From assembly GCF_008107645.1 (NCBI RefSeq), contig NZ_SDGY01000001.1, positions 186,540 through 250,539 of the forward strand: 64,000 bases of DNA, given 5' to 3'. Under the pieces are notes generated by a model. It worked only from the letters and a program-made list of their open reading frames with translations. It was not told the DNA's origin and did no database searches. The position numbers and the translations under genes are program-made. The stretch comes from Leuconostoc litchii. Lineage in GTDB: Bacteria > Bacillota > Bacilli > Lactobacillales > Lactobacillaceae. This document shows, piece after piece, positions 4,623 through 30,966 of this stretch; within the stretch, counting starts at the first letter, position 1; every line of letters starts with the position of its first letter.

Positions 4623-4919
4623 ATGAAACCTCGTAAAATACCAATGAGAAAAGACATTGTAACGGGTGAAATGTTTCCTAAAAAAGAACTCGTTCGAGTC
4701 GTTCGTAGTAAAGAAGGCGATGTAATGCTTGATCCGTCAGGAAAAGCGAATGGTCGTGGTGCGTATATAAGCCTTGATGTAAAAAATGCAGAATTGGCAA
4801 AGAATAAGCGTATCTTTGATAAAGCGTTTGATGTAAAAGTTAGTGATGAGTTTTATGATGAACTTATTGCTTACGTGGACCATCAACAAGCGCGTCGGGA
4901 GTTGTTTGGTGATAAATAA
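4623..4919 (+). CDS. ylxR: YlxR/RnpM family RNA-binding protein
   Basis: A 98-residue DUF448 protein. The Bacillus homolog is described as a modulator of RNase P. The conserved core is present: a basic N-terminus, TGEMFPKKELVRVVRS and NGRGAYIS. Most family members have a Cys in the early RKC-x-TGE motif; here the sequence reads MRKDIVTGE, so the Cys is Asp. It lies in the canonical position between nusA and ylxQ. The start ATG has no strong Shine-Dalgarno site, so coupling to nusA is possible. Confidence 0.9.
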   Translation: MKPRKIPMRKDIVTGEMFPKKELVRVVRSKEGDVMLDPSGKANGRGAYISLDVKNAELAKNKRIFDKAFDVKVSDEFYDELIAYVDHQQARRELFGDK

Positions 4920-23442: not shown

Positions 23443-23467
23443 AAAAAGATCTCATTGAGATCTTTTT
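23443..23467 (-). terminator. Terminator of the 23.5-kb gene
   Basis: AAAAAGATCTC/GAGATCTTTTT with a 3-nt loop. It covers the stop codon of the gene to its right. Confidence 0.85.
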
Positions 23468-23984
23468 ATTCTTCGTGCTTGGCACCAATTTGATATATTG
23501 CTTCTTCAATATTTAAATCTTTCTTCATTTGTGTAACAATATTTGCACGTTGTGCTGAACTTTTATTAATTGCGTTAACTGACATTGTAATAATCGTATC
23601 AAATCCTGTATGGAACCGTGAAGCCACACTCGCATCGATATTATATTTACCAGTTTGTGCAGCTTTGACAATTGTAATAATACCATTTTGCCCATATAAT
23701 GCATCACGTAGTGCCTGCGCATCTGAACTACTCAAATCTTTGCTGTTTTCTTTAGCGATTGTCTTGGCGTCTTTTTCAATAGCAGACATAGTATTGCTAT
23801 TTTTGTAGTTAAACTTACTTAGGTCGTCGATTAAGCTTTTAATATTCGTTCGTGACTCTTGTAAATGAGTATAATCAGCTTTTGGCATTGAAACATCAGC
23901 GTATTTTGGCTGCTGATTAAAGGTTACAAAAGTAATGAGTAACGCTGCAATAATAACACCTAGGGCAATAAATGCTTTTCTCAT
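23466..23984 (-). CDS. Membrane-anchored extracellular protein of unknown function
   Basis: A 172-residue protein with one N-terminal membrane segment (RKAFIALGVIIAALLITFV) and a hydrophilic, Lys/Ser/Asp-rich helical domain outside the cell. No lipobox is present, so the segment is an anchor or an uncleaved signal. I recognise no family. GGGAGAAG precedes the ATG used; a start 14 codons earlier has no RBS. It stands alone beside tRNA-Arg with its own terminator. Confidence 0.75.
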   Translation of the reverse strand: MRKAFIALGVIIAALLITFVTFNQQPKYADVSMPKADYTHLQESRTNIKSLIDDLSKFNYKNSNTMSAIEKDAKTIAKENSKDLSSSDAQALRDALYGQNGIITIVKAAQTGKYNIDASVASRFHTGFDTIITMSVNAINKSSAQRANIVTQMKKDLNIEEAIYQIGAKHEE

Positions 23985-28042: not shown

Positions 28043-29689
28043 TTATGAAAGAAACTTTTTATAAAAATCGGAAGTGTTGTTAAATTTATTTCTATATAAT
28101 ATATAAATTATCAGTAAAATCAGAGATATTAAGGAAATAAATAATGCTATTTTATCCGAAAGTGAATACTGATAACTTATTGATATTTGTGATATTCCTT
28201 TTGGTATAGTGATCAACGTTGTGCCGGTATTATTTGCACTACTTTTAGAGAGGTTATGATTGACTACTACTCGTTGGTTTGGATAATAATAAACAGGTAC
28301 TGATAAGTCATAGTCTTTCTCGTTTTTATTGTTGATTTTGATCGTATAATTATTTTCTCCAATTTTTACTTGAGCAACAACATTTTTATTTAAACTATTA
28401 ATACTTTGGGATAGAAGGTCTGCGTGTTCAGCAGCAGATATAGGTGTGTAATCTGTATGAAAATAATTAGCTGCTAATTTATTTGTGTAACGATCTCCTT
28501 CAAGTTGATTATAAGTTTTTTGAGGATCATTATACATGTCATGCACAGCAGAAAGATGTAAACATGTAATGGCCAATAATGCTACAACATAATAACTATT
28601 TTTAATACGCAATTTTGGTAGGGTGAATAGACTGAACGCCATTAGTATCAATGCAGTCGAAAATGCATTTAAACGCCATATAAATTGTATTTGTGCGAAG
28701 GGAGTATTATTAAATAAATGCCAAGGAAACAATGAAGAACTGCATAATAATAAAACAGTGCCATAATACAAAGTATATTTTTCGAATTTTGTTGCTTTGA
28801 AGTTACCATTTATAAACATTATGCCTGTTAAGCACAGAGTTAATATAACCAGAGCCCCCAAATTAGTATGTTGTATATGATTGTTTAACGAATCTACTAA
28901 CATTGAACCAAAATCAAATCCCTGTAATTTAAAAACAGGTGGTGTGCTTAAATTATTTTCCAGTGAATATGTAATAAACGGGACAATAAATGCTAAGCTA
29001 AGTAAAAATGAAGATAGTCCAGCGAATATCAAAGCAACTAAACGTTTCAAAATATTATTGCTTTTAGCTATACTGCATACCAGTGTTACTGTTAGCAACA
29101 GCGTTGCGATAACTGTTGAAAGAAGATGTGTATACAATAAAGCAGACATACCAAAAGATAGCCAATACCATTTCTTATAGTCGTCAAATATGACATAGTA
29201 TATACCAAGCAGCATCAAGGGTAAGAATGCCATTGCTACTGCTTCACCAACTGAGGATCTATAATAAACGTCATCCGTTCGATATAATGAAAAGGAGTAA
29301 GTAATGGCAAAGCATAGAGCGCTTATTTTATGTTTATTGATTTTATAAACTGAAAAATAACTAATGAGCATAGTCATTAGAGTTACAAACAAAAAGTAAA
29401 TTTTATAGCCTACGATTATGCTATGGGTAATTTTAAAAACAATGTACATAGGGGCTAAAAAAAGCCATGGATAAAATGGATTAATCATTGTGCCATGATG
29501 AGCGAAATTATTAAAATTAACAGGAGAAGATAGTACATTACTTAGTCCAATCGCTCGTGATAGATGAAACATCATGTCTTGATTATTGAAAGCTCTTAAT
29601 CCATTCATTCGGAACATAGGCAAACAATAAATAACACTCATTAATACCATGATTATGAATATAACGTAATTAGAATTTATTTTTTTCAT
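28043..29689 (-). CDS. Polytopic membrane protein, GT-C-like (YfhO-like)
   Basis: A 548-residue protein with about 11-12 N-terminal helices, a soluble domain at about 395-510 and one C-terminal helix with a basic tail. The first extracytoplasmic loop has NNQDMMFHLSRAIG, with an acidic residue as in GT-C glycosyltransferases. The overall plan resembles Gram-positive YfhO/GT-C proteins that modify cell-wall polymers, but I see no decisive motif and the substrate is unknown. It is a single gene divergent from the RNA and TetR gene to its right; no strong RBS was seen. Confidence 0.7.
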   Translation of the reverse strand: MKKINSNYVIFIIMVLMSVIYCLPMFRMNGLRAFNNQDMMFHLSRAIGLSNVLSSPVNFNNFAHHGTMINPFYPWLFLAPMYIVFKITHSIIVGYKIYFLFVTLMTMLISYFSVYKINKHKISALCFAITYSFSLYRTDDVYYRSSVGEAVAMAFLPLMLLGIYYVIFDDYKKWYWLSFGMSALLYTHLLSTVIATLLLTVTLVCSIAKSNNILKRLVALIFAGLSSFLLSLAFIVPFITYSLENNLSTPPVFKLQGFDFGSMLVDSLNNHIQHTNLGALVILTLCLTGIMFINGNFKATKFEKYTLYYGTVLLLCSSSLFPWHLFNNTPFAQIQFIWRLNAFSTALILMAFSLFTLPKLRIKNSYYVVALLAITCLHLSAVHDMYNDPQKTYNQLEGDRYTNKLAANYFHTDYTPISAAEHADLLSQSINSLNKNVVAQVKIGENNYTIKINNKNEKDYDLSVPVYYYPNQRVVVNHNLSKSSANNTGTTLITIPKGISQISISYQYSLSDKIALFISLISLILLIIYILYRNKFNNTSDFYKKFLS

Positions 29690-29861: not shown

Positions 29862-29892
29862 TTGTGATATTCAGAGAAAATAGTGTTATGAT
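29862..29892 (+). promoter_or_regulatory. Putative promoter of the 29.9-kb RNA
   Basis: TTGTGA, a 19-bp spacer and TATGAT. Transcription would start at about 29899, right at the foot of the first stem of the RNA. Confidence 0.5.
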
Positions 29893-29899
29893 AATTTTA

Positions 29900-30044
29900 C
29901 GGTGATCTTTTCATTACTTCATTTTTTATTTCATAAGATCTTATTTTATTTCATTATTGGGGGATCACCATACATATTGGGCATATCGTGTATCAATATT
30001 TTTGGTACACGATGATGGTAAAAACACCGTTTAGGTGTTTTTTT
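29900..30044 (+). ncRNA. Putative structured small RNA with intrinsic terminator
   Basis: A 145-nt stretch with no ORF, bounded by a promoter and a terminator. Stem 1 is GGTGATC/GATCACC (29901-29907/29963-29969), closing a long U-rich loop with four TTCAT copies (near 29911, 29919, 29930 and 29951). Stem 2 is ATCGTGTA/TACACGAT (29985-29992/30006-30013). Stem 3 is the terminator AAAAACACC/GGTGTTTTT (30020-30028/30034-30042) ending in a T-run. The next gene begins 187 nt later, so this is more likely free-standing than a leader. I could not match it to 6S, tmRNA, RNase P, SRP or a riboswitch class I know. Confidence 0.5.
30020..30044 (+). terminator. Terminator of the putative small RNA
   Basis: AAAAACACC, a 5-nt loop (GTTTA), then GGTGTTTTTTT. 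Confidence 0.85.
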
Positions 30045-30143
30045 GTTGAGCGGGACTAATATTGATACTTCAGTGTACTAAAATTTTTATTTAATTTAAT
30101 ATCTTTATGTTATTATTACTACAGTAATGAACTAATATAGTAT

Positions 30144-30230: not shown

Positions 30231-30806
30231 ATGTCAAATAAAACGGATGCACGTGTTATACGTACAAAATATATTATTCAAACTGAAACAATTTTATTGC
30301 TATCGACTCAGCCGGATTTTTCTATCACAATGTTATTATCACGTGCTAACATAACACGAGGCACTTTTTACAAATATTATCGTAACAAAGAGCATCTGAT
30401 TTCAGAAATTAATGATGCTTTAATTAATGATCTGCTAGAACATACACAAGAGACTTTTAAAATCACAGATATGATTAATACGGTTAGTAAACAAGCTGCT
30501 TTTTATAATGCGGTTTTGAATCATGATATCGATAAATCATTTAGCGATACGCTGTATAGTCGATTACGTACGCAAATGGCAACACATACAAACGATTTAA
30601 GCGATGAAGAGAGAAGGGCACAGCAATACCAATGGGAAGTAATTAATGCTGGTTTCTGGGCAATTATGGCAAAATGGCTAGCTGATAACATGAATATTTC
30701 TCAAGTAGCTTTATTTGAAGAATTCACTGAGTTGTGGCGATTAAATACTAATACAGTGGCTAATAATGGGTTGAATTTATTTGACTTCAGTACTGATGAA
30801 ATTTAA
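30231..30806 (+). CDS. TetR/AcrR-family transcriptional regulator
   Basis: A 191-residue regulator. The N-terminal HTH spans about residues 10-60 and contains SRANITRGTFYKYYRNKEHL, the family signature. The rest is a ligand-binding domain rich in aromatic residues (YQWEVINAGFWAIMAKWLADN). CAGGAG stands before the ATG used; the longer ORF upstream has no RBS. No transporter or enzyme is adjacent in the same direction, so its target is unknown. Confidence 0.88.
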   Translation: MSNKTDARVIRTKYIIQTETILLLSTQPDFSITMLLSRANITRGTFYKYYRNKEHLISEINDALINDLLEHTQETFKITDMINTVSKQAAFYNAVLNHDIDKSFSDTLYSRLRTQMATHTNDLSDEERRAQQYQWEVINAGFWAIMAKWLADNMNISQVALFEEFTELWRLNTNTVANNGLNLFDFSTDEI

Positions 30807-30863: not shown

Positions 30864-30952
30864 GGTTGTTAGCATAGCTACAACCACTCAGAACAGGTCA
30901 AAGCATGTTCGGGACAAGGGCCCGACCGCCTGGGATGGTGAGTCTAAGTATA
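30864..30952 (+). ncRNA. Ribosomal protein L21 leader
   Basis: The leader folds as GGTTGT/ACAACC at its 5' end, then a GAACA/TGTTC stem, a CGGG/CCCG stem around ACAAGG, and an ACTCA/TGAGT closing pair. The conserved single-stranded blocks AGGTCAAAGC and GGGATGGTGAGTCT resemble the L21 leader found before rplU in Firmicutes. It would let L21 repress its own operon. Confidence 0.75.
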
Positions 30953-30966
30953 AGGAGAAACCAATA

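Follow-up and report, generated by a model that had tools for sequence, protein, structure and literature searches.

A candidate free-standing small-RNA gene upstream of tetR in part of the genus Leuconostoc

The Leuconostoc litchii stretch analysed here (64,000 nucleotides, hereafter the window) carries, directly ahead of a TetR-family regulator gene (tetR), an element that we regard, on its sequence features, as a credible new small-RNA gene. We give somewhat better than even credence to the view that it is a free-standing, non-coding gene found in only a part of Leuconostoc, whose RNA would act in trans through pairing of its loop with mRNAs. Transcription would begin at the element's own extended -10 promoter, the 5'-terminal stem should protect the 5' end and may confer stability, the long U-rich loop would lie exposed as the likely surface for pairing with mRNAs, and the transcript is predicted to end at an intrinsic terminator set behind a fast-evolving spacer hairpin. 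A role in trans is the simplest reading because the element has no conserved reading frame, tetR appears to have a promoter of its own and the gene upstream of the element is not the same in the window as in three close relatives. Leuconostoc is a food-fermenting genus and the element is common to several of its sister species; a genus-restricted RNA that combines a near-invariant 5' module with free 3' hairpins would suit as a tractable model of RNA regulation in food bacteria.

Architecture of the element

The features of the element and of the adjoining tetR are collected in Table 1. An earlier note on this DNA, made from the window's letters, had described a promoter (TTGTGA-N19-TATGAT), a GGTGATC/GATCACC stem, a second hairpin and an intrinsic terminator; all are present in the sequence where they were described, and the promoter gains an extended -10, with TATGAT at 29887-29892 and the upstream TG at 29884-29885 in a coordinate check. 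A consensus promoter scan chose a related pair (GTGATA-N17-TATGAT, with the TG flagged) and returned 11 promoter-like pairs in 551 bases against 4.9 expected. The terminator at 30020-30044 is missing from the list of a terminator scan, perhaps because its T run overlaps the stem.

Table 1. Coordinates of the element and of the downstream regulator gene in the window
Feature	Position	Strand	Remarks
Promoter	29862..29892	+	TTGTGA 29862-29867, 19 nt, TG-T-TATGAT 29884-29892; extended -10
Predicted small RNA, about 146 nt	29899..30044	+	Ends predicted: 5' by the -10, 3' by the terminator
Stem 1, 5' arm GGTGATC	29901..29907	+	
Loop, 55 nt, U-rich, mostly unpaired (predicted)	29908..29962	+	Blocks TTTTATTTCATAAGATC and ATTTCATTATTGGGG conserved in four window-group genomes
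Stem 1, 3' arm GATCACC	29963..29969	+	Conserved ATACATA (29970-29976) right after
Hairpin 2	29985..30013 (29985-29996/30002-30013)	+	G018, G013 and G010 carry a hairpin of different sequence ahead of the terminator
Intrinsic terminator	30020..30044 (30020-30028/30034-30042 + T run 30038-30044)	+	Terminators of other sequence in G018, G013 and G010
Probable separate tetR promoter	30086..30116	+	Extended -10 TGTTATTAT (30108-30116); read by eye
TetR-family regulator (TetR_N, TetR_C_8)	30231..30806	+	Directly downstream of the element in 6/6 genomes having it

The same note saw no ORF in the element. Taken literally this does not hold, as a 37-codon GTG frame spans 29902-30015. The frame is not found in any of the three relatives translated, a 2-base gap falling within it in the close ones, and the three share no common peptide, so that a coding peptide was rejected; nor is there a conserved reading frame among the genomes compared.

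Distribution within and beyond Leuconostoc

The element sits upstream of the orthologous tetR in five other genomes, that is in six of the 19 Leuconostoc genomes examined. Besides the window itself, a DNA search of these 19 returns three genomes that match the first 97 of the 171 query bases at 85-86% and, in G015, a lone 30-base match; in the three, conservation at this level extends from the -10 through stem 1. We refer to the window genome together with these close relatives (G018, G013 and G010) as the window group. Inspection of the sequence upstream of the tetR ortholog revealed a diverged version in two more genomes (G003 and G016), whose counterparts we infer to be L. falkenbergense (locus L067) and L. 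pseudomesenteroides (locus L066).

A covariance model built from all six elements matches exactly those six among the 19 Leuconostoc genomes. Under stricter filters its matches among 301 family genomes number five, each of them a Leuconostoc, with none outside the genus; G013, absent from these matches, probably falls outside that genome draw. Applied to 13 named Leuconostoc loci and the window, the model matches only the window, L066 and L067. Since the matched members were in the seed of the model, these results show restriction rather than independent discovery. Matches shorter than 60 bases do occur in other genera; with E up to 0.05 they are seen in 52 of 151 genomes, and most are marginal. 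They were rejected as homologs: they look like AT-rich chance and none is among the matches to the 301 genomes, a draw that may omit some of the 151 and that was filtered more strictly.

The inverted repeat that flanks the conserved stretch might mark a DNA element, an operator or a mobile remnant, with no functional RNA. We consider this very unlikely, given that the element is matched once in its own genome and has no match in plasmid and phage searches, that the extended -10 is conserved at a nearly fixed distance and that the 3' hairpins and terminators persist with changed sequence in the window group. Its exact core was not found in viral contigs.

Conservation pattern and the diverged pair

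G018, G013 and G010 share 75 of the first 76 RNA bases without change; substitutions and gaps follow. Between the window and G018, identity in 20-base bins is 0.65-0.80 at 29890-29930, reaches 1.00 at 29950, falls to 0.18-0.50 at 29970-30010, where hairpin 2 lies, and is 0.75 at 30030, over the terminator and its T run; the loops of the two differ in part. A hairpin followed by a terminator is kept in all four window-group genomes, with sequences that differ between the window and its relatives. Within the diverged pair, L. falkenbergense and L. pseudomesenteroides differ by one substitution in 99 bases, and their flanks differ often. Each of the five homologous loci has an extended -10 (TGnTATnAT) at a distance of 8 or 9 nt ahead of the stem. 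Read from these alignments, the pattern is what a functional 5' module joined to a changeable 3' end would show. The free-standing structured RNA proposed earlier finds support in the conserved promoter, stem and loop, and in the window group also in 3' hairpins and terminators that keep their order with altered sequence.

Stem 1, whose absence from related species would by the earlier note have spoken against the RNA, is present in five relatives, one pair being broken in two of them. Covariation in the stem is thin: of six pairs scored, four are invariant, one is compensated and one broken, a score that 29 of 500 shuffles attain.

The diverged elements are probably homologous to that of the window group, judging from position and shared sequence. 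Both groups have the place before tetR, the extended -10 located 8-9 bases before GGTGA, the stem and then CACC-R-TACATA; they have little loop sequence in common. With a model made from the window group only, the diverged elements are the top two of five hits over 13 loci (80,660 bases; E 0.78 and 0.99), and when two loci are searched unfiltered they come third and fourth among 10 hits (E 1.7). No recognisable terminator lies between element and tetR in the two genomes of the diverged group.

Predicted folding

The segment 29900-30044 folds at -39.2 kcal/mol, compared with -20.7 +/- 3.2 for dinucleotide shuffles (z -5.75, none of 200 as good); adding the promoter brings z to -3.68, and one of 200 shuffles is then equally good. 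Among GC-corrected 145-nt segments of the window on both strands the element ranks 7th of 1278, and some of those ranked better may overlap the element itself. The RNAs of G018 and G010 give z of -1.26 and -1.81, with terminators incomplete in the folded sequence, and the diverged RNAs have no advantage over their shuffles (z 0.13 and -0.15). When the core is folded in isolation, stem 1 is predicted to close in each of the six genomes (P 0.99-1.0), and on average 63-69% of the loop stays unpaired. In every one of them the region of the 3' arm can also pair with bases inside the loop (maximum P 0.60-0.74) with stem 1 still at 0.99-1.0; with both at high probability, the two would largely coexist in the prediction.

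Stem 1 could also serve a ribosome decoy, in which the 5' arm would pair with the 3' tail of 16S rRNA and the stem would hide or release this Shine-Dalgarno-like end, a scheme that we judge highly improbable. The pattern GGAUCACCUCCUUUCU, which we take to be that of the 16S 3' tail, is present in the three genomes examined and finds seven complementary bases in the window group (GGUGAUC) and six in the diverged group (AGGUGA). However, a seven-base match is possible by chance, stem 1 is predicted closed with P of about 1, and no ATG, GTG or TTG lies at the usual distance after the arm.

Relation to tetR and neighbouring genes

The orthologous tetR is present in all 19 genomes. In the 13 that lack the element, a gene whose product starts with MRKAF lies directly before tetR. 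In the window this gene is found at 23466-23984 on the minus strand, 6 kb off and in the opposite orientation, so that the interval has been either rearranged or filled. The upstream neighbour of the RNA differs between the window and the three close relatives. In the window it is a minus-strand gene (28043-29689) for a 548-aa membrane protein, for which Pfam and NCBIfam give no family at E 0.001.

Inspected by eye, both groups seem to have a promoter dedicated to tetR. Between the terminator and tetR, conservation peaks in the 20-base bin at 30090 (0.80); the consensus scan did not pick the promoter at 30086..30116.

These neighbourhood data bear on the alternative that the element is a cis-acting leader or attenuator of tetR, whose 5' hairpin would switch and so decide on passage through the terminator into the gene. 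The constant position before tetR in six of six genomes, the alternative loop partners of the 3' arm region in all six and the want of a clear terminator before tetR in the diverged group all speak for such a leader. Nevertheless we hold it to be rather doubtful: 187 nt separate the terminator end (30044) from the tetR ATG (30231), each group has a likely promoter for tetR on its own, and the 13 other Leuconostoc genomes keep tetR with no element at all. The terminator and the separate promoter side, by sequence, with the earlier remark that the element does not look like a leader. Complementarity between the RNA and the tetR start is likewise weak outside the window (z -2.1 in the window; -0.4, -0.7, -0.5, 1.5 and 1.5 in the others), and pairing with the tetR start was rejected because it is not conserved across the six genomes.

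Loop pairing and candidate targets

We return to the reading that we prefer, a small RNA whose loop would pair with mRNAs in trans. The earlier note had counted four TTCAT copies in the loop and proposed that UUCAU binds AUGAA at translation starts. The count is exact for this loop (4 copies against a shuffle mean of 1.5, P 0.011) and is not kept in the relatives: the two close ones that were counted have three copies apiece and the two distant ones a single copy. The proposed start-codon antisense role is not supported: the count is not conserved, and pairing of the loop with 45 start regions of the window is no stronger than that of its dinucleotide shuffles (-12.50 vs -12.59 kcal/mol for the window loop, -12.68 vs -12.93 for that of G018). 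The diverged loop does somewhat better than shuffles (-13.90 vs -12.84, sd 0.82). These 45 starts were picked by hand from ORF lists; three (11911, 39317 and 57675) clearly sit in the wrong register, and there may be further errors, for instance at 4843.

The same data touch on the possibility that the RNA binds or titrates a protein, the near-invariant long loop being the landing site of an RNA-binding protein. This would agree with a loop that is near-invariant in the three close relatives, and again between the two diverged species, and with start regions that show no pairing excess. No protein motif was identified in the element, however, the two groups have little loop sequence in common and even the window and G018 loops differ in part, and we regard a protein-binding role as unlikely.

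For loop-mRNA pairing, sites complementary to the invariant blocks were sought with two patterns in four whole genomes. The scans return 42 and 15 sites, counts that include the element itself once per genome; reversing the pattern as a control gives 29 and 3. Loci were assigned to 30 of the 42 and to all 15, and the follow-up was limited to these. One site lies exactly over the Shine-Dalgarno sequence and start codon of an alpha-glucosidase gene in G018 (L139), presumably oligo-1,6-glucosidase-like from its sequence, and is kept in the 95% ortholog of G010 (L140). At this start the RNA is predicted to pair with AAGGAGATCTTATGAATAA at -32.2 and -31.7 kcal/mol in G018 and G010, compared with about -21.5 for shuffled RNAs (z -3.4 and -2.6). 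The remaining 19 of the 21 starts scored have z between -0.9 and 1.5. Given the number of starts in a genome, z values of this size may be reached by chance. Of the four homologs listed for G013 and the four for the window genome, three each were looked at, and the site is missing from all of these. We consider the alpha-glucosidase complementarity, a strong site in two of the four window-group genomes, a lead. The broader proposal that this is a lineage-restricted regulatory RNA whose loop masks the Shine-Dalgarno sequence and start codon of sugar-utilisation genes strikes us as quite unlikely.

Comparison with known RNAs

The element has no match in Rfam 15 at the gathering score, a relaxed threshold yields only chance-level hits, and the elements of the relatives have no sequence match there either. 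The Rfam search, raised in the earlier note as a way to expose a known leader of tetR, thus points to none.

Small RNAs of Gram-positive bacteria that act by base pairing have their own promoter and an intrinsic terminator, and include a type with a C-rich loop. The element is likewise free-standing, with a 5'-terminal stem-loop, an exposed loop and a terminator hairpin, but its loop is U-rich rather than C-rich. By sequence, a promoter, a terminator and the lack of a conserved frame are found together in the four window-group genomes.

6S RNA is short and structured, a stem closing over a large stretch left unpaired. The element resembles it in all of these respects, but a further hairpin and a terminator follow its stem. 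The 6S covariance model (RF00013) has no match in the element or anywhere in this genome, and by this model, which in a control finds its RNA in 5 of 14 genomes and in 0 of 1 for the element's own genome, the element is not 6S RNA. The 6S region of Weissella is reported to lie downstream of rarA, not at tetR as the element does, and non-canonical 6S structures are noted for Leuconostocaceae (PMC8414754). In the titles and abstract openings of the literature within reach, which leaves most subscription papers outside, no free-standing Leuconostoc small RNA other than 6S was found.

Another structured RNA occurs in the same neighbourhood. An ordinary L21 leader (RF00559) lies at 30872-30955 before rplU; it is a separate cis element downstream of tetR and does not overlap the element described here.
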